From positions 836,180 to 900,179 of the forward strand of contig LIHN01000001.1 in NCBI GenBank assembly GCA_001314545.1: a stretch of DNA of 64,000 bases. Direction: 5' to 3'. Made by a program: the position numbers and the translations under genes. Source of the stretch: Bacteroidetes bacterium HLUCCA01. GTDB lineage: Bacteria > Bacteroidota > Rhodothermia > Balneolales > HLUCCA01. Shown piece by piece: positions 7,128-23,891 of the stretch. The notes below the pieces were generated by a model. It was given only the letters and a program-made list of their open reading frames with translations, searched no databases and was not told where the DNA came from. Numbering within the stretch: position 1 is the stretch's first letter; each line of letters begins with the position of its first letter.

Positions 7128-9650
7128 ATGTTTGAACAGATTAGTCTGTCCGGCCGGCGATATGCCGGCGCGGTCGCCTTGCTTGTTTTTTTGTGGCTGC
7201 AACCCGTTGCACACACCACAGCATCCGCAGCTGCAATCCCGAACGGAACCCATGAAATAGCGGCCACAGCTCCGGCGCATTCCTTCGAGGCTCAACCTGC
7301 CCAAACCCGGGCCCAGTCCGACCCGGCCTTAGCACCCGCCACCGACACCACCCTCATCCAGCTGACCGACCTGCTCCAACTCTATCAGCTCGGCAGCGTC
7401 ACCTACGCCCCGGACGGCCGTCACATCGCCTTCAGCACAACCTCGGTCGTGGAACAAGACGACCCCCTCCGACCCTACACGTATCGCACACGCATCTGGC
7501 TGGTACCCGCCGATGGTAGTGCTCCGGCCCGGGCGCTCACCGGCGATCGCCAAAATGCCTCACAGCCCGCCTGGCACCCATCCGGCGAGCACCTGGCCTT
7601 CGTGCGTTCCGTTGACGGTCAGTCGCAGATCATGCTGCTATCGCTCAACGGCGGGGAACCCCGCGCCCTGACCAACGCCGAAAACGGAGCCTCCTCCCCG
7701 GTCTGGAGTCCGGACGGAACCCGGCTGCTGTTCTCCTCATCCGTTTCCATGGCCTCGCTGTTGTCGAGCACCGACTTCGCCGGCGGTCCGGGCTGGAGTA
7801 TCGAGCGGGGCGGACTGGATCAGGCCTCATCAACAACCGCATCTGGCGCCCGGGGCACCAACCACACAACCGGACAGGGCGGAAATAACGCATCCGGCGC
7901 TGCCGGAACGGGCTCAAACGGCGCGGCAGACAACAACGCCGCCGCTGAGCCCCAGCCCAATCCCGACGGCACCCTCGCTGAAATCCGTGCCTGGCTCCAC
8001 CAAAATGCCGCACAAGACAATCCACGCGTGCTGACCCGGCTGAATTTTCAGGGCGAAACCGACCTCGAGCCGGAAATGCGTTTTTCTCATCGCTATATCA
8101 TCGATGTCGATGTGGATGATCACAATGCCGCAGCGCAGTCGGGCACCGCTATCACAGCCGGCTATACGAGCTGGGGTGGCGGGAGCTGGAGCGCGGATGG
8201 TGCCCACGTCTACCTGCACACCTCCGCCGATATCCCCGTCGATGAGGAAGGTCGGGCCGCGATGGGGGCCGATGGACAGACCCACCCCGACCGACTCAAC
8301 CGAAACCGGATCTTCCGCGTGGCGACCGATGGAAGCGGGGAGATTACCCTCGTTGCAGACATGCAGGATTTCAGCGTGGCCAACCCGCAGGTATCTCCCG
8401 ATGGAACCCACATCGCGTTCACATCCTCCGACCAGCGCGACCTGGGCTACGCCCAGACGGAAATCCACGTCATGCGCATCGATGGAAGCAATGCCCGGGC
8501 GCTTTCCGCCAGCATCGACCGCTCGGCGGGCAACCTGCAGTGGTCGGACGACAGCCGGCAGGTCTATTTCACGGCCAACAGTGACGGAGGCACCCTGTTG
8601 TATCGGTCGGGGATAATCCCGGGTCGCGGACAGTCCACACCCACGGTGCAGTCGCTCAGCGTTGTAACGGAAGGCATCCGCAGCTTCGATATACGTGGCA
8701 ATCAGGTCGCTTTTGTGCGCACCGCCATCGAAAACCCCTTCGAGCTGTACAGCGCCCGACTGGCAACGGGCCGGAACGTCCCGGCTGACCGACTCTTGGG
8801 TGACCGCACCGTGCTGACCGATTTCAATTACCGCTGGCTGGAAGGCAAGCAGCTGAGTCGGCCCGTGCGCGGGGTGACCGACTCGGACGGCTTTCCCGTG
8901 GAGTACTGGATTATGGAGCCCACAGCGCTCGAGGCGGGGAAAACCTATCCCCTCATGCTCCAGATTCACGGCGGGCCGTCGGCAATGTGGGGACCGGGCG
9001 AGGCCTCGATGTGGTTCGAATTTCAGTACCTCGCCGCGCGCGGATATGGCATTGTCTACAGCAATCCGAGGGGTTCGGGCGGGTACGGCCGCGATTTTCA
9101 GTATGGCAACTACCAGGACTGGGGGTTCGGTCCGATGCGCGATGTGCTGGCCGCCACCGACCGGGCCATGGAGCTGGACTGGGTTGACACCGACCGGATG
9201 GTCGTTACCGGAGGTTCCTACGCCGGCTATCTGACCGCCTTTATCATCGGCCACGACCACCGGTTCAAAGCTGCCTTCGCCCAGCGCGGCGTATACGATC
9301 TGCATACGTTTTTAGGCGAGGGAAATGCCTGGCGACTGGTTCCGAATCATTTCGGTGGGTATCCGTGGGAGTCGGCCGAGGTGGACTCTGTACTGCGTGC
9401 CAATTCGCCCATGACCTATGTCGGGCAGATTCGCACGCCCCTGCTCATCAAGCATGGCGATGTGGACCTCCGCACGGGCGTCATCCAGAGCGAGATGATT
9501 TACAAGGCCCTGAAAATCCGCGGACAGGATGTGGAATACGTGCGGTATCCGCGCGCCAGCCACGAGATGTCGCGCAGCGGGGAGCCCCTGCACCGGCTGG
9601 ACCGGATTTTGCGAATTTATGAGTACTTTGAGCGCTATGTCGGCGAGTAG
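7128..9650 (+). CDS. S9 family prolyl oligopeptidase, exported
   Basis: An 840-residue serine peptidase with a signal peptide (hydrophobic to about 30, Ala-rich cleavage region), a WD40-like beta-propeller with repeated SPDGxxIAF-type blades, and a C-terminal alpha/beta hydrolase domain. The triad is Ser697 in GGSYAGY, Asp in HGDVDLR and His in RASHEMS. It cleaves peptides of oligopeptide size. At about 233-280 the propeller contains a low-complexity Gly/Asn/Ala/Thr-rich insert. Two amidohydrolase genes follow on the same strand, spaced 44 and 12 bases apart, ending in one terminator, so the three are probably an operon. Confidence 0.93.
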   Translation: MFEQISLSGRRYAGAVALLVFLWLQPVAHTTASAAAIPNGTHEIAATAPAHSFEAQPAQTRAQSDPALAPATDTTLIQLTDLLQLYQLGSVTYAPDGRHIAFSTTSVVEQDDPLRPYTYRTRIWLVPADGSAPARALTGDRQNASQPAWHPSGEHLAFVRSVDGQSQIMLLSLNGGEPRALTNAENGASSPVWSPDGTRLLFSSSVSMASLLSSTDFAGGPGWSIERGGLDQASSTTASGARGTNHTTGQGGNNASGAAGTGSNGAADNNAAAEPQPNPDGTLAEIRAWLHQNAAQDNPRVLTRLNFQGETDLEPEMRFSHRYIIDVDVDDHNAAAQSGTAITAGYTSWGGGSWSADGAHVYLHTSADIPVDEEGRAAMGADGQTHPDRLNRNRIFRVATDGSGEITLVADMQDFSVANPQVSPDGTHIAFTSSDQRDLGYAQTEIHVMRIDGSNARALSASIDRSAGNLQWSDDSRQVYFTANSDGGTLLYRSGIIPGRGQSTPTVQSLSVVTEGIRSFDIRGNQVAFVRTAIENPFELYSARLATGRNVPADRLLGDRTVLTDFNYRWLEGKQLSRPVRGVTDSDGFPVEYWIMEPTALEAGKTYPLMLQIHGGPSAMWGPGEASMWFEFQYLAARGYGIVYSNPRGSGGYGRDFQYGNYQDWGFGPMRDVLAATDRAMELDWVDTDRMVVTGGSYAGYLTAFIIGHDHRFKAAFAQRGVYDLHTFLGEGNAWRLVPNHFGGYPWESAEVDSVLRANSPMTYVGQIRTPLLIKHGDVDLRTGVIQSEMIYKALKIRGQDVEYVRYPRASHEMSRSGEPLHRLDRILRIYEYFERYVGE

Positions 9651-9694: not shown

Positions 9695-10996
9695 ATGATA
9701 CAAAAACTTAGTCTGCTGCTGCTGACCGTGCTGATGGGCACTGGTCTGGCCACGGCGCAGGAACGTCCCGTGGCCTTCACCGGGGCCACGGTCTACCCCA
9801 TCAGCTCCCCTCCCATTGAAAACGGCGTGGTGGTAGTGCACAACGGTGTCATCACGGCCGTAGGCGACGCCGGCACCCGCATCCCGTCCGATGCCGAGCG
9901 TGTAGATGCCACCGGCAAAATCATCATGCCCGGACTGGTTGATACCCACTCGCACATCGGGGGCGGCGACGGTGGTGACGGCACTTCGGCCATCCACCCG
10001 GATGTGCGCATTGTGGATGCCATCGATGTCTACAGCGATACCTTCCGCAAGGCCCGCACCGGCGGTGTAACCACCGTCAACGTCATGCCCGGCAGCGGCC
10101 ACCTGCTCAGCGGTCAGACCGTGTACCTCAAGCTGCGCGAGGCCAGCACCATCTATGACATGCTCTTCGACACCGATATCACCAACGGGATGACCGGCGG
10201 CATCAAGATGGCCAACGGAACCAACTCCCTGCGCAGCGCTCCCTTCCCGGGAACCCGCTCGCGCAGTGCGGCCATGATGCGCGACCTGTTCGTGCGGGCC
10301 CAGCATTACCAGCAGCAGGTAGCCCGTGCCGGGGGTGATCCGGACAAAATGCCCACGCGCGACTTGCAGATGGAAGCCATGGTGGAAGTCCTGGAAGGTC
10401 GACGCATGGTCCATTACCACACCCATCGCCATGACGACATCCTCACCATCCTCCGGCTCAAAGAAGAATTCGGTTTTCGCGTGGTGCTCCATCACGTAAG
10501 TGAAGCCTGGCGGGTGGCCGATGAGATCGCCGAGGCCGGCGTGGGCAGCTCCATTATTCTGCTCGATTCCCCCGGCGGGAAGCTGGAAGCCATGAATATT
10601 CGCATGGAAAACGGCAAAGCCCTGGAAGATGTCGGCGCCGATGTAGCCTTCCACACCGATGATAGTATTACCGATTCCCGCCTGTTCCTGCGCATGGCGG
10701 CCTTTGGCGTACGCGCAGGGATGTCGCGCGAGAAGGCGCTGGAAGCCCTCACCATTGCCGGGGCGCGCATGCTGGACATGGAAGACCGGGTGGGTTCGCT
10801 GGATCGGGGCAAAGATGCCGACCTGATCATCCTCAGCGGCGATCCCTTCAGTGTGTACACCTTCGTGGAGCAGACCTGGATTGAAGGCATCAAGGTGTAC
10901 GACCGCGCCGAGCCCGACCAGCGGGTGTTCAACACCGGCGGATGGGAAGTCTTCCGCGGCGAGTTTTTTGATCACTACAGCACCGATGCCAACTAA
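9695..10996 (+). CDS. Amidohydrolase family protein (metal ligands intact)
   Basis: An exported 433-residue metal-dependent hydrolase of the imidazolonepropionase/dipeptidase-like branch. A signal peptide ends near AQE (21-23). The small beta domain leads to DTHSH with His85 and His87, the first metal ligands. Further candidate ligands are the His cluster HYHTHRHDD, the HH of VVLHHVSEA, and the Asp pair in FHTDDS. The C-terminal GKDADLIILSGDP strand closes the composite domain. It lies 44 bases after an S9 peptidase, suggesting hydrolysis of N-acyl or cyclic peptide products in the periplasm. The substrate is unknown. No clear Shine-Dalgarno is present. Confidence 0.88.
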   Translation: MIQKLSLLLLTVLMGTGLATAQERPVAFTGATVYPISSPPIENGVVVVHNGVITAVGDAGTRIPSDAERVDATGKIIMPGLVDTHSHIGGGDGGDGTSAIHPDVRIVDAIDVYSDTFRKARTGGVTTVNVMPGSGHLLSGQTVYLKLREASTIYDMLFDTDITNGMTGGIKMANGTNSLRSAPFPGTRSRSAAMMRDLFVRAQHYQQQVARAGGDPDKMPTRDLQMEAMVEVLEGRRMVHYHTHRHDDILTILRLKEEFGFRVVLHHVSEAWRVADEIAEAGVGSSIILLDSPGGKLEAMNIRMENGKALEDVGADVAFHTDDSITDSRLFLRMAAFGVRAGMSREKALEALTIAGARMLDMEDRVGSLDRGKDADLIILSGDPFSVYTFVEQTWIEGIKVYDRAEPDQRVFNTGGWEVFRGEFFDHYSTDAN

Positions 10997-11008
10997 AGGA
11001 GTATGTTC

Positions 11009-12403
11009 ATGAATACATCGAAATCATTTTCTTCAAACCGCGGCGGTGCAAACAGTGACGCGCGGTCCGGGGCTGGTTCAGCCCAAAGCACATGTTCACA
11101 TTTTGTGATGTTCGGTTCACCTGTAACCGGAACGAAGTCCCGTTTTTCACAGCGCAGCTTCCGGGCTGCCGGGGTGCCTGCGGGTCTGCTCAGCACCCTG
11201 ATGCTGGTCGCGATGCTGCTGTTTTCGGGGGTCGATGACGTCCGTGCCCAGACCTATGCCATACAGGGCGACATCGTCTACACCATGGCCGGCGACCCCA
11301 TCACCAACGGCGTCGTGCTGGTAAGCGACGGGAAAATCGACCGGGTGGGTCCGGCCAACGCGGTGCGTATCCCTTCCGGCGTAGACATAGTACAGGCTCG
11401 GATCGTCACCCCGGGGTTCATCGATGCGCACTCGGTAGTGGGACTGGCCGGCGCGCTGAATTCCCCGCACGATCAGGATCAGCTCGAGCGGTCGAATCCG
11501 TTTCAGCCGGAGCTGCGGGCCATTGATGCCTACAACGCCCGGGAGCATCTGGTGGTGTATGTGAGCGATCAGGGCATTACCACCCTGCACACGGGTCACG
11601 GTCCGGGTGCCATTGCCAGCGGACAGACCATGATTGTCAAGACCAGCGGCGAAACCGTAAACGAAGCGCTGGTCGACTCCGTGACCATGGTGGCGTTCAC
11701 CCTCGGTCCGTCGGTGAGCCGGAATTACAGTCAGGTAGGCTCGCGTTCGCGCACCATCGCCATGCTTCGGGCGGAATTTATCAAAGCCCAGGAGTACAAG
11801 AGCAAGGTCGACCAGGCCGGGGGGGATCCGGCGAAGATGCCGGCCCGGAACCTGAAAATGGAGACCATGATGGCCGTGCTGAACGGGGAGATCCGCGCTA
11901 TGATCACCGCCCAGCAGGTCACTGAAATCCTGGCCGCGCTGCGACTTCAGGAAGAATTCGGGTTCGACCTCGTGCTGGATGGGGCGGCCGAAGCCTACCT
12001 GGTGCTCGACCAGATCAAAGCCGCCGGCGTTCCGGTGCTGCTGCATCCTCCGATGGTCCGCACTACCGGTGAGACGGTGAATGCCAGCTGGGAGACCGCT
12101 GCCGAATTGCACGAAGCCGGGATTCCCTTCGCGTTTCAGGCGGGTTTCGAAGGCTATGTGCCCAAGACGCGCATTGTGCATTACGAAGCCGCCATCGCCA
12201 TAGCCAATGGTCTGCCCTACCTGGCCGGACTGGAAGCCATCACCATCGGCTCGGCCCGAATTCTGGGCATTGACGATCGCGTGGGCTCGCTGGAGCGGGG
12301 CAAGGATGCGGATATTGCCCTGTTCAACGGCGACCCGTTCGAGTTTCTGACCAGCACCACCGGGGTGATGATCAACGGACAGTGGGTGGTAGAGCCGGAG
12401 TAA
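11009..12403 (+). CDS. Amidohydrolase-like protein lacking metal ligands
   Basis: A 464-residue paralogue of the preceding enzyme. The ATG at 11009 was chosen over 11003 because AAAGGAG ends 7 bases before it. The N-terminus is unusually long (about 50 residues) before a hydrophobic signal segment ending near VRAQ. The fold is kept from start (GDIVYTMAG) to end (GKDADIALFNGDP), but the metal ligands are gone: HSH is HSV, the HTHRH cluster is ITAQQV, LHH is LDG, and HTDD is QAGF. It is therefore probably a non-catalytic partner or a binding protein. Twelve bases separate it from its active neighbour, implying co-expression. Confidence 0.85.
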   Translation: MNTSKSFSSNRGGANSDARSGAGSAQSTCSHFVMFGSPVTGTKSRFSQRSFRAAGVPAGLLSTLMLVAMLLFSGVDDVRAQTYAIQGDIVYTMAGDPITNGVVLVSDGKIDRVGPANAVRIPSGVDIVQARIVTPGFIDAHSVVGLAGALNSPHDQDQLERSNPFQPELRAIDAYNAREHLVVYVSDQGITTLHTGHGPGAIASGQTMIVKTSGETVNEALVDSVTMVAFTLGPSVSRNYSQVGSRSRTIAMLRAEFIKAQEYKSKVDQAGGDPAKMPARNLKMETMMAVLNGEIRAMITAQQVTEILAALRLQEEFGFDLVLDGAAEAYLVLDQIKAAGVPVLLHPPMVRTTGETVNASWETAAELHEAGIPFAFQAGFEGYVPKTRIVHYEAAIAIANGLPYLAGLEAITIGSARILGIDDRVGSLERGKDADIALFNGDPFEFLTSTTGVMINGQWVVEPE

Positions 12404-12443
12404 GCGGTTCAAATCGACCGCGCTTCTGCAGATTTTCGTGGGT

Positions 12444-12492
12444 AGCCTGTCGCTCCAATGCTTTGGTAATGCGTAGCGACAGGCTTTTTTTA
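12444..12492 (+). terminator. Rho-independent terminator after the amidohydrolases
   Basis: AGCCTGTCGCT (12444-12454) pairs perfectly with AGCGACAGGCT (12475-12485), followed by a run of seven T. It ends the S9 peptidase-amidohydrolase operon. Confidence 0.92.
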
Positions 12493-12553
12493 TGGCTGGT
12501 ATTGATCAGTGATGAGTCCGCGGGGCAATCGGGTTGGGATGGGCATAAAACCC

Positions 12554-12594
12554 CGGATTGAGCCAACCATATAACACGGATTGAGCCAGCCATA
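12554..12594. repeat. Two-copy 18-base direct repeat
   Basis: CGGATTGAGCCAACCATA and CGGATTGAGCCAGCCATA begin at 12554 and 12577 (period 23, one mismatch). The second copy abuts the A-run of the minus-strand terminator. Confidence 0.7.
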
Positions 12595-12632
12595 AAAAAA
12601 CCACCCTGCTTTGGCAAGCCGCGGCAGGGTGG
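12594..12632 (-). terminator. Orphan rho-independent terminator (minus strand)
   Basis: CCACCCTGC (12601-12609) pairs with GCAGGGTGG (12624-12632); on the minus strand the stem is followed by seven T (A-run at 12594-12600). On the plus strand no T-run follows, so it acts on minus-strand transcripts only. Confidence 0.85.
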
Positions 12633-12710
12633 CACTTCTCAGGTAGCATTGACAGTTGCAACTAAGCAACTGCACTTTCAATAACTAGTGAAAGTTGTGA
12701 ATCGTTCACA
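12594..12710 (-). ncRNA. Candidate small structured RNA
   Basis: Read on the minus strand, four hairpins follow each other. TGTGAA pairs with TTCACA (12696-12710) and ACTTTC with GAAAGT (12674-12695). CAGTTGC pairs with GCAACTG (12653-12672). The last is a strong terminator at 12594-12632. No minus-strand gene lies upstream to use that terminator, so a short independent transcript is the simplest reading. The 5' end and promoter are not identified. It was compared by eye with tmRNA, SRP RNA, 6S RNA and RNase P, and no hallmark was seen. Confidence 0.4.
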
Positions 12711-12879
12711 TTGAGCGCGATTTTCTTTTCTTCCTTAGGCGATTGCAGGGCATGAAGTTATCGTCGGGCCGGCGATTTGGGCTCCTTTTTTTCTGAAAAA
12801 AGAGGGGTTACAGGAGATGTAAAGCAACAAACTCCCCACCGTCTTTTGCGCATCAACCGGAGGTTTTCAAGACAGTTAC

Positions 12880-13044: not shown

Positions 13045-14397
13045 ATGGAAATCCAACGCCACCTTTTACGCTTTCTTACTACATGGAGAACGTCAGCAGA
13101 ACGCAAACCGCTCATTCTGCGCGGAGCCCGGCAGGTTGGAAAAACAACGCTGGTGAACACCTTCGCCCAACAGTATCCCCGCAGCATAACACTCAACCTC
13201 GAACGTACGCAAGACCGTGCATTATTTGCGGCTACCGACGATGTTCGCCTCATCCGCGACAAGCTGTTTCTGGAGCATCAAATACAGCCCGATGAGCAGG
13301 TACTGCTATTCATCGATGAAATCCAGGAGTCGACCGAGGCAATCAAACTGCTCAGGTACTTCTACGAAGACCTTCCGGAGCTCCATGTCATCGCGGCCGG
13401 ATCCCTGCTGGAATTCGCCCTGGGAGCGGTGGCCAATTTCCCGGTCGGAAGAGTTCAGTTCCTGTGGATGCATCCGGTGAATTTCAGTGAATACCTGCTA
13501 ACCAAAAATCCATCCCTGCACAAAGAACTTCAACAAATTCCCGTGCGGGATGCGGCTCATTCCCTGCTTCTGCGTGAATTTCATGCGTACGCTATTGTCG
13601 GGGGGATGCCCGAGGCCGTGAAAAAAATCCTGGTTGACCAGAACATGGCCGGCATCGCATCCGTGTACTACAGTATATGGGAAACCTACAAGGCCGACAT
13701 CCCAAAATACGCCTCCGGCAAAACCGAACGGGAGAACATCGCCCTGATTTTGGATCATGCAGCCGGCTACATCGACCAGCGGGTCCGTTTTGAAAACTTT
13801 GCCAACAGCGGACGAAAATCCCGGGAAATTTCTCAAGCATTTCAGGCGCTGGACCGCGCTAAGGCGATTCAACTCCTGTATCCGGCTACACAAACGGAGC
13901 CTCCCCTCACACCCAACCTGCGCAGATCTCCCCGCCTGCAGTTTCTGGATACCGGTCTGGTTAATCATATCCTGAATATTCAGGGTAACATGCTGATCAT
14001 GGACGACCTCAACGCAGCCTACAAGGGTGCTATTATTCCGCATCTGGTAACCCAGGAACTGCTTTCTACACAAACCATGAGCATCAATAAACCCATGTTT
14101 TGGGTTCGGGAAAAAATCAGCGCATCCGCCGAGGTAGACCTGGTTGTAGTTAGGGGTGGTCTGGCCATACCCGTTGAAATCAAATCCGGTAAAAAAGGGA
14201 CATTACGTTCGCTGCATACCTACATTGAGATGACCCCACATAACCTCGCCATTCGCATGTACGCCGGACCGGTGCGTGTGGAACATCACACGACCAACCT
14301 GAACAGGAAACCATTTATTCTTCTGAATTTACCCTATTATTTAGGCACACAGCTTGAACAATGGGCCGACTGGTTCATCGAATCCTATGCACGTTAA
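13045..14397 (+). CDS. ATP-binding protein, AAA_14 plus DUF4143
   Basis: A 450-residue protein of the AAA-family ATPase group common in Bacteroidota, Chlorobi and archaea. Walker A is GARQVGKTT (Lys33), Walker B is LLFIDEIQES (Asp91, Glu92), and a sensor-1-like region AAGSLLEF follows near residue 120. The C-terminal DUF4143 domain ends with a PD-(D/E)xK-like core: EVDLVV, then a strand with VEIKSGK, suggesting nuclease ancestry. The cellular role of the family is unresolved. It is a single gene, preceded by the phased repeats and followed by a two-copy direct repeat. The AT-rich upstream sequence suggests acquisition by transfer. Confidence 0.9.
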   Translation: MEIQRHLLRFLTTWRTSAERKPLILRGARQVGKTTLVNTFAQQYPRSITLNLERTQDRALFAATDDVRLIRDKLFLEHQIQPDEQVLLFIDEIQESTEAIKLLRYFYEDLPELHVIAAGSLLEFALGAVANFPVGRVQFLWMHPVNFSEYLLTKNPSLHKELQQIPVRDAAHSLLLREFHAYAIVGGMPEAVKKILVDQNMAGIASVYYSIWETYKADIPKYASGKTERENIALILDHAAGYIDQRVRFENFANSGRKSREISQAFQALDRAKAIQLLYPATQTEPPLTPNLRRSPRLQFLDTGLVNHILNIQGNMLIMDDLNAAYKGAIIPHLVTQELLSTQTMSINKPMFWVREKISASAEVDLVVVRGGLAIPVEIKSGKKGTLRSLHTYIEMTPHNLAIRMYAGPVRVEHHTTNLNRKPFILLNLPYYLGTQLEQWADWFIESYAR

Positions 14398-14402
14398 ACT
14401 CA

Positions 14403-14488
14403 GTTCCTGAATCAAAAAAGATGAAATTACTGGATGCATACGTTACTACCTCGTTCCTGAATCAACAAACGATGTGGTACTGGATGCA
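14403..14488. repeat. 36-base direct repeat between ATPase and lipoprotein genes
   Basis: GTTCCTGAATCAA...GATG...TACTGGATGCA occurs at 14403-14438 and 14453-14488, period 50, with a handful of mismatches. It begins 5 bases after the ATPase stop and ends about 50 bases before the next start. Confidence 0.8.
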
Positions 14489-14539
14489 AACAATAATCCC
14501 TACCAATCCAATCGGTTAAATTCAAATCCTTCCTCCCCC

Positions 14540-15394
14540 ATGAAACAATATACTCCCCTGGTACTGGCCGCCGTACTCCTGTTTGCGATCGGCGGATGTT
14601 CCCTGCTGCAGCAAGCCGCCGGAACCGTGCAAATGCCGGAAGTCCGGTACGACTCGATGCAATTCTCCTCGGTGAACTTCGACGGACTGTCGATGAATTT
14701 CGGTTTCGAGGTGGATAATCCGAATCGACTCGCCCTGCGCGCAACGGGGTATGAGTATGCGTTTTCGGTGGAAGGAAGCGAGTTTCTGCAAGGCCGCAGC
14801 GATGCGGGACTGGAGCTGGCGGCCGGGTCGGCCCGGACGGTGCAGATTCCGGTGACAGTGGGATTTCAGGAGCTGTACAACACCGCCGGAGCGCTGGTCC
14901 GACAGGATAGCATCGCCTATGAGGTACGTACGGAATTTGTGTTCGACCTGCCCGTGCTGGGTCGGCGTTCGGTGCCGGCTTCGGCCAGCGGCTACCTGCC
15001 CGTTCCGCGTATGCCCCGCCTCGCCCTGGAAGACATCGCCGTGCGATCCGTCTCCTTTTCCGGCGCCGAAGTGGTGCTGCAGCTGCGCCTGGACAATCCC
15101 AACGCCTTCGGGATGTCGCTTTCAGGACTGGCCTACAACCTGAGTGTGGACGGTAATCAATGGGTCAGCTCGACCCTGCGCGAAACCATTTCCGTGCCGG
15201 CCAAAAGTTCACAAAACGTGAATATTCCGGTCCGACTGGACCTGACCCAACTGGGGCTCTCGGTGTACCGCATGCTCACCGGATCGCAGTCGTTCACCTA
15301 CGAGGTAGACGGCAACGGAATGGTCGACCTCGACCTGCCCTTCTTCCCCTCCACCGAGCTTCCGTTCAACCTCAGCGGCGATTACCGGTTCTGA
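14540..15394 (+). CDS. LEA14-like (WHy domain) lipoprotein
   Basis: A 284-residue lipoprotein. The ATG at 14540 begins a short signal with lipobox IGGC (Cys20); upstream in-frame codons run through the direct repeat and were rejected. Two LEA type 2 / WHy-like beta-sandwich repeats follow, about 35-150 and 160-280, each with the signature of an early D-N-P-N strand (FEVDNPNRLALRA and LRLDNPNAFGMSL). Such proteins sit in the cell envelope; the function of bacterial members is not settled, though desiccation or stress roles are proposed for the domain. It is not obviously in an operon. Confidence 0.82.
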   Translation: MKQYTPLVLAAVLLFAIGGCSLLQQAAGTVQMPEVRYDSMQFSSVNFDGLSMNFGFEVDNPNRLALRATGYEYAFSVEGSEFLQGRSDAGLELAAGSARTVQIPVTVGFQELYNTAGALVRQDSIAYEVRTEFVFDLPVLGRRSVPASASGYLPVPRMPRLALEDIAVRSVSFSGAEVVLQLRLDNPNAFGMSLSGLAYNLSVDGNQWVSSTLRETISVPAKSSQNVNIPVRLDLTQLGLSVYRMLTGSQSFTYEVDGNGMVDLDLPFFPSTELPFNLSGDYRF

Positions 15395-15424
15395 GGCAAG
15401 GGTAAAGCCGGTGCTACAGACCTC

Positions 15425-15454
15425 TTGACATTACTATGATATGTAATTACTTTG
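15425..15454 (+). promoter_or_regulatory. mazEF promoter with embedded dyad operator
   Basis: A perfect -35 TTGACA (15425-15430) is 17 bases from TACTTT (15448-15453). Inside the spacer ATTAC (15430-15434) and GTAAT (15443-15447) form an inverted repeat with an 8-base gap, positioned as expected for autorepression by the antitoxin. The antitoxin ATG follows about 20 bases downstream. Confidence 0.6.
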
Positions 15455-15475
15455 TATGCACATTAATATCCCGTC

Positions 15476-15733
15476 ATGAACACCAAACTCATATCCATCG
15501 GCAATTCCAAGGGCATCCGCATACCCAAAGCCATCCTCGAGCAGGCTGGACTGGAGGACGATATTGTCATGACAGTTGAAGACGGAGGGGTCGTCATTCG
15601 CCCGGCTGCGAATTCCAGGGCAAGCTGGGGTAAGGCCTTTAAAGAAATGGCTGAACATGAGCACGACATCCTCCTGGATGAGGACACAACCCCGTGGCGT
15701 GTAGACGGAGACGATGAGGAATGGCAGTGGTAG
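15476..15733 (+). CDS. mazE: MazE-type antitoxin (SpoVT-AbrB domain)
   Basis: An 85-residue antitoxin. Residues 1-45 form a swapped-hairpin AbrB/MazE DNA-binding domain (IGNSKGIRIPKAILEQAGL, then VVIRP). The acidic tail (DEDTTPW, DGDDEEW) is the usual toxin-neutralising extension. It overlaps the toxin gene by 13 bases, the classic antitoxin-first arrangement, and is preceded by a strong promoter with a dyad in its spacer. Confidence 0.9.
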   Translation: MNTKLISIGNSKGIRIPKAILEQAGLEDDIVMTVEDGGVVIRPAANSRASWGKAFKEMAEHEHDILLDEDTTPWRVDGDDEEWQW

Positions 15734-16065
15734 ACCGGAAAAAGGCGGTACATCGTTACGAGGTCTGGCTGATAGCGCTGGACCCGACTGTGGGCTCCGA
15801 AATGCAGAAAACACGGCCCTGTGTGGTCATTTCACCCGATGAAATGAACGAACACATCCGCACAGTGCTGATTGCTCCGTTAACTTCTTCCGGTAAACGA
15901 TACCCTACCCGCATACCGTTGACGTTTCAGGGCAGGAACGGCGAGATAGCTGTTGACCAGATCCGGACCGTTGACAAGTCGCGGCTCCTCAAACAGGTCG
16001 GGGATATCGACGCCCCGGTCCGGCAACAGCTCCATCGGGTATTGAATGCTATGTTCAGCCCTTGA
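15721..16065 (+). CDS. mazF: MazF/PemK-family endoribonuclease toxin
   Basis: A 114-residue toxin with family motifs: YEVWLIALDPTVGSE at the N-terminus, KTRPCVVIS (the conserved R-P in strand 2), VLIAPLTSS, and the C-terminal VDQIRTVDKSRL helix. MazF enzymes cut single-stranded mRNA at short sequences; the site here cannot be told. Translation is coupled to the antitoxin through the 13-base overlap. The 3' end overlaps the convergent MFS gene by 11 bases. Confidence 0.92.
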   Translation: MAVVDRKKAVHRYEVWLIALDPTVGSEMQKTRPCVVISPDEMNEHIRTVLIAPLTSSGKRYPTRIPLTFQGRNGEIAVDQIRTVDKSRLLKQVGDIDAPVRQQLHRVLNAMFSP

Positions 16066-17455
16066 GCCCGTAAATCCGCGTGGTGTGCAGCACGACCAGT
16101 CCCGCGGCGATGGTGCTGCCGACCGCCAGCTGGGCGAAACTCACCCCGCCATCCAGCAGGAGTCCGAACAGCAGCGGCGCCAGGGCTGTGCTCAGCACCA
16201 TGAACATCGTGAACAGGCTCCGGACCTGCCCGATCCGACCCACCCCGTACATTTCGGCGAGGATGGCATTTTTGAACACCATCCCGCTGCCTGTACTCAT
16301 CCCCGTACCGAACAGAAACACCGCCGCAGCGGGTAATCCGGGCACCAGCGCCAGTCCGAGGATGCCCAGGGCCATGGGAATCAGATGCACCACGAACAGC
16401 GTAGCCGTGTTGTATTTATCAGTCAGCACGCCGCCATACAGTCCGGCAAGGAGTCGGATAAAGCCATAGCCGGCAAACAGATAGGTATACGTGGCAATCG
16501 GCCAGCCGCGCGACTCCGCCATCAGATACTGGTAGAAAAAGAATCCGGTGACGGTAAAACTCAGGTAGAACGAGGGGAGCAGGAGCACATAAAAACGCGA
16601 TTCCTTGAGCATCTGCCAGTAGAAGGCCCGCTTGCCCATGGGGGCTTCGGCCGGTTTTGACGGGGACTGGCCGGTCGGGGCGGAGGCATGATCTGCATTG
16701 TGGGTGACCCCGGCAGCCAGACCGGAAGTTGTACCCGAAACGGGCTTACCGGCCCGGGAGGCGACTTCAGTTAGCCCGGGGGCGATGGGTTTCGTTGTTG
16801 TATCCATGCTGTCCGCCGTGCCTGCATCGCGCTGGTCGTGCTCATCCGACCGGTCCAGCACCGAGGCAATACCCGAGCGCAGCGCGTCCCACCAGGTCCG
16901 GCCCGGCTTCACGGCATCATCCGTGCCCGGCAGCGGCTTGCCGATGCGACCTTTCCCCGGCACATAGTCGAGTCGCTCGACCACAAACAAGGGCATCACC
17001 GCCAGCAGCACCAGGGTGAGTCCGGCGGTGGTCATCGCCCCCACCCGCCAGCCGAACGCGGCAATCACCGCCCCCACCAGAATCGGGAAAATCATCTCGC
17101 CCACCGAGTAGCCGAGGCTGGAAAAGCTCAGGGCTTTGCCGCGATCCCTGCTGAAATACCGCGACATCGTGCTCAGGGAGATGTGGCTGAGCAGGCCTTG
17201 TCCGGCCAGGCGGAGTCCGACCAGCGCCACGAACAGCACGGCCGGGTGCCAGGCCAGGGCCAGGACGACACAGGCCACCGCCAGCAGCAGCGTAGTCTGG
17301 ATGGTAAATGGTCGGATAGGTCGGTCGTCAATCACGTGGCCTACGCGCAGCATGATCACCGAGGAAATGACCGTTGCCAGGGCGTAGTACCCGCCGAAAA
17401 CCGAGTTCGAGAACGCCAGGTCGGCCAGGATGAACGGCACGAACAGGGAGATCAT
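16055..17455 (-). CDS. MFS transporter, start codon uncertain
   Basis: A 466-residue (as annotated from ATG) major facilitator permease with the loop 2-3 region GHVIDDRP and a long hydrophilic loop of about 100 residues between the two six-helix halves (about 195-290). Coding similarity to a first helix (FFFGFLLTFFSSFGQTF) continues upstream of this ATG in the same frame to about position 17520, but that open stretch, back to an in-frame TAA at about 17584, contains no ATG, GTG or TTG. Either an unusual start (ATT at 17518) is used, or a frameshift near the C-runs has separated an upstream ATG. Substrate unknown. Confidence 0.75.
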   Translation of the reverse strand: MISLFVPFILADLAFSNSVFGGYYALATVISSVIMLRVGHVIDDRPIRPFTIQTTLLLAVACVVLALAWHPAVLFVALVGLRLAGQGLLSHISLSTMSRYFSRDRGKALSFSSLGYSVGEMIFPILVGAVIAAFGWRVGAMTTAGLTLVLLAVMPLFVVERLDYVPGKGRIGKPLPGTDDAVKPGRTWWDALRSGIASVLDRSDEHDQRDAGTADSMDTTTKPIAPGLTEVASRAGKPVSGTTSGLAAGVTHNADHASAPTGQSPSKPAEAPMGKRAFYWQMLKESRFYVLLLPSFYLSFTVTGFFFYQYLMAESRGWPIATYTYLFAGYGFIRLLAGLYGGVLTDKYNTATLFVVHLIPMALGILGLALVPGLPAAAVFLFGTGMSTGSGMVFKNAILAEMYGVGRIGQVRSLFTMFMVLSTALAPLLFGLLLDGGVSFAQLAVGSTIAAGLVVLHTTRIYGLKG

Positions 17456-17777
17456 GAAAGTCTGGCCGAAGCTGGAGAAGAAGGTGAGCAGGAAACCGAA
17501 GAAAAACCGGTTCGAAATTTCGTTGGAGGAAGTGGAAGTAGGAGCGCAAAGCGGGGGTTGGGTTGGGGGTGATCGGCGCGGGCGTTACGGGAATTGCAGA
17601 CCGTACCGGCAACCTCAAATATACGCATTTTCGAAGGGGGGAATGTAGGGTGGAGTTATTCCGGGTTCTGCATCCCGCGGGTTATGTGCGGTTGGGGCGC
17701 TTCCAATCCCGGACAAAAAAAAGGCTGCAGGATGGAAATCCTGCAGCCCCCTGGTATCCGTGGCAATGGTATACCGG
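17456..17777. other. Gap between MFS gene and T9SS cargo
   Basis: The first 130 bases contain the missing N-terminal coding sequence of the MFS protein. The remainder holds a minus-strand terminator (17715-17748). Nothing else was seen. Confidence 0.6.
17715..17748 (-). terminator. Rho-independent terminator of the T9SS module operon
   Basis: GGCTGCAGGAT (17723-17733) pairs perfectly with ATCCTGCAGCC (17738-17748), and eight T follow on the minus strand. It lies 30 bases after the stop of the last large cargo gene. Confidence 0.95.
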
Positions 17778-20327
17778 TTATTTGACGAGCGTCATCCGTT
17801 TGGAGAGTACTTGTCCGGCCGCTTCGATGCGGTAGACGTACACTCCGCTCGACAGAGACGAGGCGTCAAAATTCGTAGTGTGGGTTCCGGCGCTCATCTC
17901 GCCGTTCACCAGCTCAGCAATTTGCTGTCCTAAAGTATTGTAAACCGCCAATCGGACCTGACCGTTCACCGGCAACGAAAAACTTATGGTCGTGGTGGGA
18001 TTGAACGGATTCGGAAAGTTCTGGGAGAGGCTCAGCTCCGCAGGAAGCTCCGAGGCGATTTCGGAGGAGGTGGAGGTAGGTGGAGCGAATCTCAGTTTAA
18101 ACTCGGAAGATTGTGCGCTGGCAACGAGGCTATTCTCGTCGGCAGGATTTCGTTTTGACATGGGGGCATCAAACGAAATTACAGTATCATCATTCAGCTC
18201 AATTACTTCTCCGGTAACCGTGTTGACAATACTCGCGGTGACATTACCGGGTAACTGCAATTCTCGCACGCTGATGTTAACACTGCCGCCAAGGGAGGTG
18301 TAATACCCGAGGGGATACTCAATAACCTCATCGAATTCAGCAGGCATAAAATTGATGTCGACTGACTTATCATCCACGATAGTGTATAACTGTGCTCCAA
18401 TCCCGCTCATTCCAGCAAACTGAACGGCATCCATCTGATCATACCCCTGACTTGCATTATGATCAAAGGTAATCCAGGCACTGTTAGAGAAAGTACCATC
18501 GTTGAAATCTAGGACCAGTCGAGGACGCTGCACTTCTTTGGCGTAGAATGTTCCGCCGGATGATTTTGCAGCAGCAGGGAAAGTGAGGGTTGAACCTGGA
18601 CCATCATACTCTATCCAGAAACCTTGAAATGGGGTGATGAGACCATTGAAATCACCAGAACCATCTGTGCGAGCAATGACATTATCTGTTGCAGGATCAT
18701 AAACCCACACTTTATCTGCTAAATCGGCACCCCTTGTCAAGTTATCAAATTGAATGGTCGCTGAAAAAGGGTTACCTGCTATAGCATATTGAGTCCCGCT
18801 AGTATGGGTTGGAGTGAAGGCAGTGCCTTCAGCGTTTTCAGCACCTTTGAAAGATAAGGTTTTTGGCCAGCCACTATTCGCTCCGCCAAAATCCGATTCA
18901 TAAACATAAACGGCATAACCTTGACCAGCTGTTACATTGGTATTAAATTCTGTTATGTTAGTTCTAACTAACGTACCACTGGTTGAACCGACGGATGCAA
19001 AAACATTGGGCGTTCCACCATCGTAATCCGCGCCAGTCCCACCCTGCGTCCAGATACCGCTAAGCCAGGAACTAAACGGAACGGTAGCAGGCGACGATAG
19101 AAGCCTCCAACCACGATACTGTTCAACCTCTTCAACCGTCTGGGTAGCTCTTGTTAGACTACGATTGAACTGAATACTACCAGTGCTATTGTACTCAATT
19201 GTAGAAGCATTAAGACCACTGCCACTTGGAACAACAAGGGTATTCCCTGCTGCAATATCCAACGTTCCAGTCACAGTAAGATTACCGTCAATGGTAACCG
19301 TGCCGCCGTCTTGAATTACCAAACCTTGAACCGTTCTGTCACCAGTTATTTCAAGTGTTGCACCATCCTGGACTTTAATAACAGAGTTAATTAGATCGGA
19401 CTGCAACTCTAAAGTTGCATTAGTATTGATTGTAGTTGAACCCGTGTAACTGTTGTTTTGATTAAAAATGACTTTGGTACCTGATTCACCACCCACAAGC
19501 ACCGAGTTCGAAGAAACAGTGCTCGTGCTATTAGCAGCTAAACCATCTGTTATTAGCCCAGGAGTAAAAGTATTTGTTCCAGTTAACCCATATCCTACCT
19601 GTATTGAACCACTATTTGTGATTGCCATATCCTTTGCAAATACGTCTTGTCTTGAGGTTCCATTCCAATCATCTTTGAGCCAAATTGCAATATGACTGAG
19701 ATTTAAGCCTGCATCCCCACCTAGCACAATGTCGAAGTTGTTATAATCAACAGAATTGGCGTTCATTCTAACATTAACAGTACTCTGGGAAGTTTTTGTA
19801 ATTTCAAAAGTGTAGTCAAATCTTGTGGTAGAGGAATTAAAATCAAAATTAGCAGGACCACTAGTAAAATCGGAGAGGAAATATTGATTATTAAGGCCAG
19901 TTTGTTGGACTGAAAGTCTTGAATTAGCTCTGCGATTATCGAAATTAATTGTACTTGGAACTCCAGTCACTAAAGCAAAACCTGTTTCACCTCTGACTGT
20001 AGTTGCATCAATTACAATAGTTAACTTGTCGCCTACCTGTAGGTTTCTAACTGCACCGGTATTGTCCCCGTTAACTTTTAATTCCCTATAGTTTACCGTA
20101 AACCCTGATTCCCAAGATGCGAACATTCCTAAGCCAGTACCACTAAGTGCATCAAAGATTCCAGCAGAACCATCTTCTCCTCCTACACTCGAAGTCTCGT
20201 AGTACGAGGTGTTAACAGTAAAATCAACAGTTGTTTGCCCTGTAACCTCACCCGTCCATGCACCAAATAGGAATACGGTAAGGAACATTACCACCCCTTT
20301 ATACAAAAATTGCTTAGTCTTTTTCAT
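17778..20327 (-). CDS. Large T9SS-sorted surface protein, autotransporter-like repeats
   Basis: An 849-residue secreted protein. The ATG at 20327 gives a normal signal peptide (MKKTKQFLYKGVVMF..., cleavage near VTGQ) with GGGGGAA as ribosome site; the longer frame upstream overlaps the small gene and was rejected. After a beta-rich N-terminal domain, residues about 290-400 are Thr/Asn/Gly-rich and resemble the beta-ladder of autotransporter passengers (SYTGSTTINTNATLELQ). From about 403 comes the GWRLLSSP module shared with two other cargoes here. The T9SS tail is at about 770-849 (FPNPFNPTTT, LSSGVYVY, MTLVK). The gene lies 10 bases after a tiny membrane-protein gene. Its first two thirds are visibly more AT-rich than neighbours. 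Ligand unknown. Confidence 0.88.
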   Translation of the reverse strand: MKKTKQFLYKGVVMFLTVFLFGAWTGEVTGQTTVDFTVNTSYYETSSVGGEDGSAGIFDALSGTGLGMFASWESGFTVNYRELKVNGDNTGAVRNLQVGDKLTIVIDATTVRGETGFALVTGVPSTINFDNRRANSRLSVQQTGLNNQYFLSDFTSGPANFDFNSSTTRFDYTFEITKTSQSTVNVRMNANSVDYNNFDIVLGGDAGLNLSHIAIWLKDDWNGTSRQDVFAKDMAITNSGSIQVGYGLTGTNTFTPGLITDGLAANSTSTVSSNSVLVGGESGTKVIFNQNNSYTGSTTINTNATLELQSDLINSVIKVQDGATLEITGDRTVQGLVIQDGGTVTIDGNLTVTGTLDIAAGNTLVVPSGSGLNASTIEYNSTGSIQFNRSLTRATQTVEEVEQYRGWRLLSSPATVPFSSWLSGIWTQGGTGADYDGGTPNVFASVGSTSGTLVRTNITEFNTNVTAGQGYAVYVYESDFGGANSGWPKTLSFKGAENAEGTAFTPTHTSGTQYAIAGNPFSATIQFDNLTRGADLADKVWVYDPATDNVIARTDGSGDFNGLITPFQGFWIEYDGPGSTLTFPAAAKSSGGTFYAKEVQRPRLVLDFNDGTFSNSAWITFDHNASQGYDQMDAVQFAGMSGIGAQLYTIVDDKSVDINFMPAEFDEVIEYPLGYYTSLGGSVNISVRELQLPGNVTASIVNTVTGEVIELNDDTVISFDAPMSKRNPADENSLVASAQSSEFKLRFAPPTSTSSEIASELPAELSLSQNFPNPFNPTTTISFSLPVNGQVRLAVYNTLGQQIAELVNGEMSAGTHTTNFDASSLSSGVYVYRIEAAGQVLSKRMTLVK

Positions 20328-20337
20328 AGCTTCCCCC

Positions 20338-20532
20338 TCACTCCTGGCTTCGGTTGCGTAACTTTTTCCAGGCGTAGGCGCCGCCGGCGGCGGCGAGGAT
20401 GCCGAGGCCTCCGAGGGGAGCCTGATCGGGCGCATCGGGAAGTCCGGGCGGCTGGGCCTGAACGAGTTCGGGCACCATGAAGAGCAGCGTGAAGACAACG
20501 ACTGCAGCGAAGAAGACGATGAGATTTTTCAT
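20338..20532 (-). CDS. Small protein with C-terminal sorting-like tail, copy 1
   Basis: A 64-residue protein: signal peptide (1-27), a short Pro-rich mature part, then PDAPDQAPLGG, a small-residue hydrophobic helix (LGILAAAGGAYAW) and a basic end (KKLRNRSQE). This tripartite end looks like the PID-CTERM-type putative sorting signal of short Bacteroidota proteins (recalled, not checked). It starts at the ATG at 20532 and its stop is 10 bases before the large cargo start, so they are translationally linked. A sister gene at 23892-24098 has the same architecture. Role unknown; an accessory or anchor for the cargo is only inference. Confidence 0.8.
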   Translation of the reverse strand: MKNLIVFFAAVVVFTLLFMVPELVQAQPPGLPDAPDQAPLGGLGILAAAGGAYAWKKLRNRSQE

Positions 20533-20718
20533 GACTGTATCTGTTCGTTTTTGGTTGTTTAGTTGTAAATTGGTTTTCGCAGACACCCCGGCGACACACT
20601 AAGACCGGAGTAGTCATCGATTCGTATTTTCTTTATTCACCGCATCCGAAGGGTAACCCGTCCGGAGCATCGTACCCCGGGGCAAGCAGCATCGACCGCC
20701 GCACCGGCTCATTACGTT

Positions 20719-23700
20719 CTATTTAATCAAGGTCATCCTGCGGGTGATGGTCTCGGCGCCGGCCGTGAGCCGGTACAGATACACGCCCGATCCCAGCGCA
20801 GAGGCATCAAACGATACCTGGTGCGACCCGGCCGCGCGAACCTCGTCTACCAGCACCGCCACCTCGCGACCCAGCAGGTCGTACACACTCAGTCGCACAT
20901 CGGCCCCCGCCCCAACCGAAGCCGGAACCGAATACCGGATGGTCGTGACCGGATTGAACGGGTTCGGATAGTTCTGCTCCAGCGCAAACGCCTGCGGGAG
21001 CGACGGATCGGCGTCGATACTGGTAGTCTGACCAGGCTCGACCTTCAATCGAAACCGACTGCTTCCGTCGAGGGTGACCACCTCCGGAGTAAGCCCGTCG
21101 GCAGCGCGCTTGGCCATGGCACCGGACGCCTCCAGCTCCAGCGCGATTTCCTGCCCGCCGTTCAGCGCCCACGACGCACCGGTCTGGTCGTCCACCAAGG
21201 TGACGGTCCACCCCTCCGGCAGCGACCAGTCGGCCGTTCGCAACACGAAACTGCCCGACCGGGTAACCTGCATATCCATCGGCAGGGTCACAGCCTCGCC
21301 GGTGATCGGCAGGTGGTTGATTTCAAGCCCGCTTCCATCGCGCGCATAGGTCTGCATGAGGGCGTAATCGGCCGAAAACGGATACAATTTGAAGGCATCA
21401 CGCGGGTCGAGGCCGTCGGAAGCCCGTGCATCATCGGAGAAATGCACCCAGGCCGTGGAATACAGCCCCTCGCCGACCAGCTCCAGGGAAAGCACATGCT
21501 CCTGTGCGGGGACCTCCTTGCCGCGGAAGATCGGGTTGCCCCCAACCAGGTCGGCCTCCTTCATAGTCAGGCTCGCATCGGCAGCATTGGTATGAACCAG
21601 AAACCCCTGAAACGGCGCGATCCGGTAACTGCCGAGGCTCCCCGCCGTTCCGTTCCAGACGCGGAACACCCCGACGGTCGACTCCCCGACCTCGTTATCC
21701 ACATCCTCCGCTGCCTCGCCGGCAGGCTCATAATCGTACACATAAACCACCTCCGTGAGCCCGGACCGCGTGGTGGCGTTAAAGTCGAGCGTGCCCAGGT
21801 AGGGGTTGCCCAGCAGGGCGAATTGACCGGACGTTGATGGCAACGCAGGACTCACATTCCCGGTTCGTGCCGCGCCCTGCAGGGTCACGAATTTCGGGAA
21901 GCTGCCTTCCGTGCCGGGGGTGTCATCGCGATACACACCCACCGCAAAACCCGTCCCTGCCGCCGGCGCATCCGAGGCGTTGGCGATGCTCACATAATCG
22001 CTGCCGCTGAGCACGCGCACATTGGAATTCGCCGTGCCTACGTCCGGGTAGTTCGATCCGCTGAATCCCTGGGTATGGAGTCCGCCGAGCAGCTGGGTGT
22101 AGGTCGCCCCGGTAACGGGACTGCTGAGCAGTCGCCATCCCTGGCTGCCCGAGAGGGTGTACATGGCGTAGACCTCGCCGCTGGGGTATTTCAGGGCGGA
22201 ACCGAAGGTCACATCGCCCGCACCCGGACTATCCGTTCCGAAACCGATGTTCACGCTTTCGTTCGATAAAAATCCATTGGTTGCATTCATGTAGGTCGTC
22301 ACAAAAGCGAACTCCACGGCATCTTCGGCGCCGAGTCCGAGGTTGGTTTTAGAGAACGACAACGAAATGGTGGCGTCGGTATTGGCTTCCAGGGTTCGAT
22401 TCACCGGCGTAACGTAGGTGAGTCCGTTATCGCCGATGGCGCCTGTAGCCGGTATGGACCAGAGCCCGCCAAAGGTGAGGTCGACCGCCAGGGCATGGCT
22501 TGCCTGAAATCCGCCCGGGAAGCGAAGCGTCGAAGCATTATCGCCCGCGGAGGAAATGGCCCGTCGGAGCCCATCCGCCTGATCGTTCACCTCGCCATCG
22601 ATGATATTTCGTCCGGCAGCGCCCGTTGCGATGTACATGACGAAGGCATCGTTAAAGTTTCCATCGCCCTTGACGATGCGAACCTGGATATCGGTTCCGT
22701 TATCGCCAATCTGGATCGATCCGGTGCCGATGACCCCGCCGAAACTGCTGAGTTTGTTGCCGGCGTAGGTTCGGGTGAGGCTGAGGGTAGTGAAAGAGAC
22801 GGTATCCGACCACTCGCCCGTTTCATCATCCGCGTTCTTGCCCCGCACGCGTACGTAGTAGGTAGTTCCGAAATCCAGCTCGGTTTTGAAAGCATACTGG
22901 TCGTCGGAGGAGGTGACGGTGGTGGACGAGTCGAACGCGTCATCGGTACTAATCTCCACCTCATAGCTGGAGGCATTGTCGGTATCGTTCCAGTCGAGCG
23001 TGCTGTTGAGCAGTACCCCGGTAGCGGCGGCCGTGGGAGCGCTGATCACCGGCTTGGCCGGAAGGGCGAGCTTCACGTTGAAGCTGTAGCTGGATCCGGA
23101 GTCGTTGTTGACCCGGATCGAGCGCATGTCGTAGAACTCGGCCGTTTGTTCTGCTATGATGGCGGTATTGTCCAGGCTGGACGACATCACATAGTAGCTG
23201 TAGGTCTTGTTCGCCTCAACGTTGGAGAAGGTATGCGTTGCGGTGGTTCCGGTAAAGGACAGCTGGGCTACCTGGCGGTCGTCAGATCCGGTCACAGTGT
23301 AAATCAGGTAGACAAACTCATCGGCGGCGGGCGCTGCCGAAGTTGTGACGGTCACCGTTACATCATCACCGGCGCGGACGGTCGAGGCCGCGTCATTCGT
23401 GACGCTGGCGATGGTTACCGGCATGGCCGAAGTTTCCATGAAAATGGCGTCGGTAGCGGCGTAGCCATTGTCCTTGAAGTTGACCGTGTAGAACTTGCCG
23501 TTGGTTAAGGTGATGGTGTTGTTGTCAGGATTACAAGAACCACAGTAGCTAATACCCGTTACTAGAGAATTTGTGGTAAATCCTGAACCTGCCCATTGAT
23601 TTCGCCATGGATCTTCGAAATCAGTGCCCGTAAACGTACTGGCAAACTTAAAATTTTGTGAACCCGTAGTTCCTGTAAATTCAAAACTGGTGGACCAAAC

Positions 23701-23877
23701 TAACGTGCTTCCTTTGGTAGAGCGCTGCAAATCAAAATCACCACCCATGCCGGTTGTGTTGGTGAAGCCATTCCAGTCGCCTGGCATACGAAGCCCATCG
23801 TCCGCGTTAATCTGCCCCATCGCCATAGCGGGAGCTGCCAGCAGGAATAGCGTCAGTAAATAACGATTCAAGTTCAT
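20719..23877 (-). CDS. Large T9SS-sorted protein with FnIII domain
   Basis: A 1052-residue secreted protein starting at the ATG at 23877 (GAGGAGG ribosome site; clear signal peptide ending MGQ). The N-terminal 140 residues resemble a starch-binding-like beta domain found in surface glycan proteins (weak). An Ig/FnIII-like domain follows at about 145-240 and a clearer FnIII at about 276-366. A beta domain leads to the GWRLLSSP module from about 579, and the T9SS tail occupies about 965-1052 (YPNPFNPVTT, LGSGVYLY, MTLIK). It follows a tiny membrane-protein gene by 14 bases. With the amylase upstream and a shared operator, a role in alpha-glucan capture is inferred. Confidence 0.88.
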   Translation of the reverse strand: MNLNRYLLTLFLLAAPAMAMGQINADDGLRMPGDWNGFTNTTGMGGDFDLQRSTKGSTLVWSTSFEFTGTTGSQNFKFASTFTGTDFEDPWRNQWAGSGFTTNSLVTGISYCGSCNPDNNTITLTNGKFYTVNFKDNGYAATDAIFMETSAMPVTIASVTNDAASTVRAGDDVTVTVTTSAAPAADEFVYLIYTVTGSDDRQVAQLSFTGTTATHTFSNVEANKTYSYYVMSSSLDNTAIIAEQTAEFYDMRSIRVNNDSGSSYSFNVKLALPAKPVISAPTAAATGVLLNSTLDWNDTDNASSYEVEISTDDAFDSSTTVTSSDDQYAFKTELDFGTTYYVRVRGKNADDETGEWSDTVSFTTLSLTRTYAGNKLSSFGGVIGTGSIQIGDNGTDIQVRIVKGDGNFNDAFVMYIATGAAGRNIIDGEVNDQADGLRRAISSAGDNASTLRFPGGFQASHALAVDLTFGGLWSIPATGAIGDNGLTYVTPVNRTLEANTDATISLSFSKTNLGLGAEDAVEFAFVTTYMNATNGFLSNESVNIGFGTDSPGAGDVTFGSALKYPSGEVYAMYTLSGSQGWRLLSSPVTGATYTQLLGGLHTQGFSGSNYPDVGTANSNVRVLSGSDYVSIANASDAPAAGTGFAVGVYRDDTPGTEGSFPKFVTLQGAARTGNVSPALPSTSGQFALLGNPYLGTLDFNATTRSGLTEVVYVYDYEPAGEAAEDVDNEVGESTVGVFRVWNGTAGSLGSYRIAPFQGFLVHTNAADASLTMKEADLVGGNPIFRGKEVPAQEHVLSLELVGEGLYSTAWVHFSDDARASDGLDPRDAFKLYPFSADYALMQTYARDGSGLEINHLPITGEAVTLPMDMQVTRSGSFVLRTADWSLPEGWTVTLVDDQTGASWALNGGQEIALELEASGAMAKRAADGLTPEVVTLDGSSRFRLKVEPGQTTSIDADPSLPQAFALEQNYPNPFNPVTTIRYSVPASVGAGADVRLSVYDLLGREVAVLVDEVRAAGSHQVSFDASALGSGVYLYRLTAGAETITRRMTLIK

Positions 23878-23891
23878 GTGCCTGGCCCTCC

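Follow-up and report, generated by a model that had tools for sequence, protein, structure and literature searches.

Two adjacent genes of Bacteroidetes bacterium HLUCCA01, here called ORF1 and ORF2, encode proteins of the same amidohydrolase fold, one with an intact metal site and one that has lost most of it. We consider it likely that they are the catalytic and the non-catalytic subunits of a single exported hetero-oligomeric amidohydrolase, in which the dead copy is an obligate partner. Genes of the two types stand side by side in bacteria of many phyla and are sometimes fused, so the dead copy is probably required by the live one. A physical complex, activation, export and the cleavage of a substrate that resembles an amide or a peptide are inferred parts of this picture.

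Gene arrangement and neighborhood

The window, that is, the whole 64,000-nucleotide stretch of DNA that was analysed, carries the tandem amidohydrolases at the positions proposed by an earlier sequence-only reading. Both lie on the plus strand, six bases apart, and an S9 peptidase gene on the same strand ends 44 bases ahead of ORF1 (Table 1). ORF2 is unusual in the length, roughly 60 residues, of what precedes its hydrophobic segment (11003-11251), and translation may in fact begin at 11012 or farther downstream; judged by eye, Shine-Dalgarno spacing favors the ATG at 11012. None of 200 shuffled sequences was as stable as the hairpin that follows ORF2, which is absent from the list of a pattern scan limited to loops of 3-8.

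Table 1. Positions in the window of the two genes, their sequence motifs and adjoining features.
Feature	Position	Strand	Remark
S9 peptidase upstream of ORF1, local operon neighbor outside the conserved unit	7128..9650	+	PF00326
ORF1, catalytic amidohydrolase subunit (proposed), 433 aa	9695..10996	+	PF01979/PF07969 above cut-off; nearest solved structure 3ooq, E 1e-60
ORF1 probable signal peptide, first 22 residues	9695..9760	+	translation read by eye
ORF1 HxH ligands H85 and H87, end of strand 1	9947..9955	+	
ORF1 HTHRH (H242-H246), strand 5 ligand region	10418..10432	+	
ORF1 HH (H266, H267), strand 6 ligand	10490..10495	+	
ORF1 HTDD (H320-D323), strand 8 Asp	10652..10663	+	
ORF2, ligand-less amidohydrolase-fold subunit (proposed), 466 aa (463 aa from ATG at 11012)	11003..12403	+	35% identity to ORF1
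ORF2 hydrophobic stretch, probable signal peptide after long N-terminal extension	11186..11251	+	read by eye
ORF2 HSV (H143-V145), remnant of HxH	11429..11437	+	
ORF2 ITAQQV (I301-V306), at the place of the ORF1 strand 5 ligand	11903..11920	+	
ORF2 DG (D326, G327), at the place of ORF1 HH	11978..11983	+	
ORF2 QAGFEGYVPK (Q379-K388), signature in place of HTDD	12137..12166	+	E383, Y385 invariant
Probable transcription terminator 3' of ORF2, hairpin plus T-run	12445..12491	+	fold z-score -4.28

The operon with the S9 peptidase, which the sequence-only reading had also pointed out, is a local one. A peptidase of the window's type adjoins the pair at only three of the 80 best-matching loci (L037, L038, L068; the count leaves out a weak 33-bit match in L049), and we therefore place it outside the conserved unit. 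Nor did these 80 loci contain any other conserved third gene beside the pair, the biggest common flanking family being ABC ATPases (7/80) and the remaining common families coming mainly from Pontibacter loci. S9 peptidases do lie beside both amidohydrolase sets of the source genome (the second set is described below), a hint of peptide breakdown, but they are not kept elsewhere.

Other parts of the window hold a second S9 peptidase-like frame (37564-40002; PF00326) and, at 24449-28213, two long open frames that overlap on opposite strands. Domain matches in the latter region (alpha-amylase, Por secretion tail) are confined to the minus-strand frame, and the plus-strand frame is thus probably spurious.

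Fold and metal-ligand sites

Aligned with each other, the two proteins share 35% identity over 407 columns (E 7e-69), and ORF2 has the same fold as ORF1; the sequence-only reading had noted that its fold-forming segments remain. Both proteins exceed the Pfam gathering scores of the amidohydrolase superfamily profiles PF01979 and PF07969, and the best solved relative common to both is 3ooq from Thermotoga maritima (E 4e-44 for ORF2; Table 1 for ORF1). In a structure search with the model described below, 3ooq came out far ahead of other amidohydrolases among the matches listed, the ORF2 half superposing on it with a Z of 52.4 and an rmsd of 1.8 over 376 residues. Scores against two narrower families lie well below their cut-offs: 73.5 bits (ORF1) and 44.7 bits (ORF2) for the NCBIfam Xaa-Pro dipeptidase model NF051886, with a cut-off of 500 bits, and 63.4 and 34.6 bits for imidazolonepropionase HutI (TIGR01224), with a cut-off of 298 bits.

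Amidohydrolases hold their metals with an HxH motif, two further histidines and an aspartate. This set is complete in ORF1 (H85, H87, H242, H267, D322), as befits a catalytic member, and among 99 distinct ORF1 relatives each of the five is kept in every sequence with letters at the site; at strand 5, we take H242 rather than H244 to be the ligand. The counterparts in ORF2 are H143, V145, T302, G327 and E383, the last sitting two residues past the place aligned with D322 owing to an insertion. The sequence-only reading held that all metal ligands had been replaced. The changes that it listed are present (HSH to HSV, HTHRH to TAQQV, HH to DG, HTDD to QAGF), but the first His of HxH stays, so that four of the five canonical positions are replaced and H143 is the sole canonical ligand left, which sets ORF2 apart from catalytic members.

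The same loss runs through the ORF2 family. At the sites of ORF1 H87, H267 and D322, the His, His and Asp, respectively, occur in none of 103 distinct sequences, while the site of H242 is His in three and replaced in the other 100. The first His of HxH is kept in 66 of the 103, the other 37 having Arg there. Opposite H244, not taken as a ligand here, 50 of the 103 have His. Ligand loss is graded, as the site is partly preserved in some of the divergent second copies. One such copy, from an acidobacterium (L135), has retained the strand 5 and strand 6 histidines and has lost HxH and the strand 8 Asp.

Linkage of the live and dead genes

A scan of named genomes gave 554 confirmed ORF2 relatives, the best 80 of which were kept as the loci set. 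Among its members are Balneolales, Rhodothermales, Chlorobi, Ignavibacteriales, Calditrichaceae, Chitinophagaceae and Pontibacter, together with Planctomycetota, Acidobacteria, Verrucomicrobia and a gammaproteobacterium. The live gene lies directly upstream on the same strand in 76 of these best 80; in three of the exceptions the dead gene stands at a contig start (L063, L088, L116), and in the fourth (L109) other genes are upstream and a live copy is present on another contig of that genome. Linkage is tight without being absolute, as one genome (G065) has its live and dead genes on different contigs. For relatives within the order Balneolales, ORF1 is immediately upstream at 28 of 29 loci, and the 29th begins at a contig end.

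Because a set made up of the best 80 of 554 relatives is biased, and because seven of the rows L008-L036 are nearly identical to another row of that group, we turned to evenly drawn phylum samples of 148 Bacteroidota, 149 Planctomycetota and 119 Acidobacteriota genomes. In all three, each ORF2-type gene comes right after an ORF1-type gene of the same orientation, in 38 of 38, 21 of 21 and 15 of 15 cases, respectively (74/74 pooled, with one Acidobacteriota case cut by a contig end), and the gaps between the live and dead matches are 68-434 bases. A search of the 148 Bacteroidota genomes with the live profile found 39 positives, namely the same 38 and one genome (G046) whose live gene is cut by a contig end; in this sample we saw no clear case of an ORF1-type gene lacking its ORF2. 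Presence and absence of the two genes thus agree in 147 of the 148 genomes (Fisher p 1e-34, uncorrected for shared descent). Most genomes of each phylum sample have neither gene. The live-then-dead order is kept in all pairs counted, and the dead protein is far from occurring alone in most genomes, a pattern that would have spoken against the pairing.

Divergent relatives, fusions and phylogeny

Several weaker matches in Planctomycetota and Acidobacteriota at first appeared to be live genes without a partner (e.g. G195, G246, G408, G368, G361, G415), but their DNA shows live/dead tandems or fusions. Tandems with the ligand-bearing copy first and the degenerate copy second are found in Planctomycetota (L121, L122, L126, L127, L128) and in Acidobacteriota (L133, L135-L137, L139-L141; in L135 the contig end truncates the first copy). 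In addition, there are eight natural live-dead fusions in a single frame, all with the live half first, of which four are from Planctomycetota (L117-L120, 851-933 aa) and four from Acidobacteriota (L132, L133 and L134, 835-844 aa; L138, 1264 aa). Solo-like rows are limited to L123, L125 and 3ooq, the first two having no partner within the approximately 1.3-2.4 kb examined on each side. These solo 3ooq-like relatives indicate that proteins of this fold can also do without a partner.

Further sets of such genes occur. Contig 16 of the source genome has a second amidohydrolase set (L007:6192-10488), made up of a 995-aa protein, degenerate in its N-terminal domain and live in its C-terminal one, and an overlapping 438-aa dead copy, next to which an S9 peptidase lies on the other strand (10674-12863). 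In a planctomycete (G061), several further amidohydrolase matches stand in a row on contig 36 at about 14130-25520, and an acidobacterial locus (L133:2169-9867) has a run of four single amidohydrolases that ends in a fused one, live and degenerate copies alternating.

A tree of 56 rows, computed after exclusion of the ligand columns, separates a live from a dead group, with L123, L125 and 3ooq outside the pair. The dead group, including the degenerate N-domain, has support of 92/98, and the live group has 100/96 without one long row (L128_1) and 87/65 with it, so that support at the base of the live side is weak. On inspection of the topology, the subgroups mirror each other on the two sides (main clade, fusion class, divergent/contig-16 class). 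This tree is most simply explained by a single old duplication and loss, after which the two copies descended together.

Conserved residues of ORF2 and the predicted pair

The reading frame of ORF2 is open and under purifying selection, and the gene is not decaying. By a rough Nei-Gojobori estimate against the nearest relative, dN/dS is 0.063 for ORF2 and 0.10 for ORF1, and the mean top-residue frequency is 0.67 in the ORF2 family (110 rows) against 0.70 in the ORF1 family (106 rows). The dead paralogue is kept under selection with the live one, as in prozyme-type systems.

Residues that never vary in the ORF2 family include D141, H199, K213, R353, E383, Y385 and E447, and H348 is found in 109 of 110 rows. 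E383 and Y385 are present in all 103 distinct main-clade sequences and in all four C-halves of the planctomycete fusions; H199 occurs in none of these four and H348 in one, and neither is kept in the divergent second copies. In the AlphaFold2 (AF2) model, the strand assignments put H196 and H199, H348, and E383 at the C-terminal ends of strands 2, 7 and 8, respectively, or immediately beyond them. As to whether alternative ligands have been restored in ORF2, which the sequence-only reading had named as a possible objection, no alternative set is kept across the whole dead clade, although the main clade has a conserved polar set (H196, H199, H348, E383) that may yet supply ligands. We regard E383-x-Y385-V-P-K, located where the live copy has its Asp, as the first candidate for a contact with the partner or a gate.

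The stop of ORF1 and the start of ORF2 are in frame, so a read-through translation of the pair can be folded as a surrogate heterodimer. With an input alignment of fused pairs with single ORF2 rows trimmed, AF2 modeled the 879-aa read-through pair with a mean pLDDT of 88.2 and a pTM of 0.86, the linker (400-493) being mostly below a pLDDT of 50 (disordered), and a planctomycete pair reached a pTM of 0.83. Two independently placed halves would, by our own estimate, give a pTM near 0.5, which argues that the relative placement of the halves is predicted with confidence. However, AF2 may be placing two paralogous amidohydrolase halves in the homodimer interface of the family, and since a paralogue pair may borrow that interface, the models support a heterodimer and do not prove it. 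The sequence-only reading's proposal of a live/dead heterodimer is thus favored by adjacency, natural fusions and a confident placement, with the complex itself a prediction.

Origin, function and alternative explanations

We propose that an ancestral enzyme similar to 3ooq underwent an old tandem duplication, after which one copy would have kept the metal site and the other lost it while keeping the barrel. The dead copy probably then became an obligate structural or activating partner, by analogy with prozyme-type paralogues. Most likely, ORF1 would work outside the cytoplasm on a substrate of amide or peptide type, which it would hydrolyse, and ORF2 would hold ORF1 in an active assembly or gate it.

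Other explanations can be offered. The invariant H199, E383, Y385, R353 and K213 and the nearly invariant H348, with H196, H199, H348 and E383 modeled around the barrel mouth, would suit an ORF2 that is not dead at all, its mouth having been rebuilt in the main clade into another binding or catalytic site (H196, H199, H348, E383, Y385), with the two proteins acting, together or apart, in two linked steps. We think this unlikely, as H199 and H348 are missing from the divergent second copies and from the fused C-halves, apart from H348 in one of these, and a few conserved residues without a known geometry are weak grounds for a site. A further reading, tentative though somewhat less doubtful, is that the pairs form a class of exported two-subunit amidohydrolases with deep conservation in several phyla. 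Its pseudo-subunit would have remodeled the former metal pocket, through E383-x-Y385-VPK and, for the main clade, H199/H348, to give either a new site for a ligand or for regulation or an element by which the active site of the partner is completed or gated.

It is also conceivable that the two proteins act separately in one pathway, their adjacency reflecting co-regulation and descent of a duplicated operon. Pathway genes commonly cluster in operons, and in one genome the two genes are unlinked; against this stand the eight natural fusions in two phyla, the pTM of both models, the live-then-dead order and the lack of any other pathway gene kept beside the pair, all of which make separate action very improbable. 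That ORF2 is a decaying relic of the duplication would account for its missing ligands, but the intact frame, the low dN/dS, a conservation close to that of ORF1 and retention across many phyla exclude this reading in practice. The catalytic and non-catalytic subunits of one enzyme therefore remain our preferred explanation. One practical consequence is a warning for annotation, as both genes match the same amidohydrolase families and one has no metal site; another is that the live protein may be inactive when expressed alone.

Comparison with known systems

The closest solved relative of both proteins is 3ooq, whose locus name we take to be TM0814 and to which the ORF2 half is so similar in fold; it differs from ORF2 in that its ligand residues are present, and from the pair in that it groups with the solo rows. 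In the open-access papers searched, among which subscription papers are mostly missing, we found no mention of TM0814 or 3OOQ, nor any multi-phylum live/dead pair of amidohydrolase paralogues with natural fusions. Live-plus-dead heterodimers are formed by M16 peptidase pairs, to which the sequence-only reading likened ORF1 and ORF2; the theme is alike and the fold is unrelated.

Enzyme/pseudoenzyme pairs are already known, as is an inactive subunit from the amidohydrolase superfamily. In the aspartate transcarbamoylase of Pseudomonas, the pseudo-dihydroorotase (pDHO) is an inactive homologue of an enzyme of this superfamily and is needed by its partner (PMC7053772), which offers a parallel for the proposed role of ORF2. 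The partner of pDHO, in class A2 ATCase, is aspartate transcarbamoylase, whereas that of ORF2 would be an active paralogue of the same fold next door, and no further gene is common to more than 7 of the 80 loci. In trypanosomatids, AdoMetDC/prozyme and deoxyhypusine synthase are described as pairs in which a dead paralogue activates the live enzyme in a heteromer (PMC5201418, PMC3663545). These pairs have other folds, and activation, demonstrated in trypanosomatids, is for ORF1/ORF2 a proposal by analogy.

The pair described here is found as adjacent genes and as natural fusions, with solo relatives that include a solved structure (3ooq), and it appears to be older than the divergence of several phyla. 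To our knowledge, live/dead enzyme pairs are mostly known from single lineages. The apparent multi-phylum age, the adjacent and fused forms and the solo relatives with 3ooq make ORF1/ORF2 well suited to studying how a cell comes to depend on a dead paralogue beside the live one.
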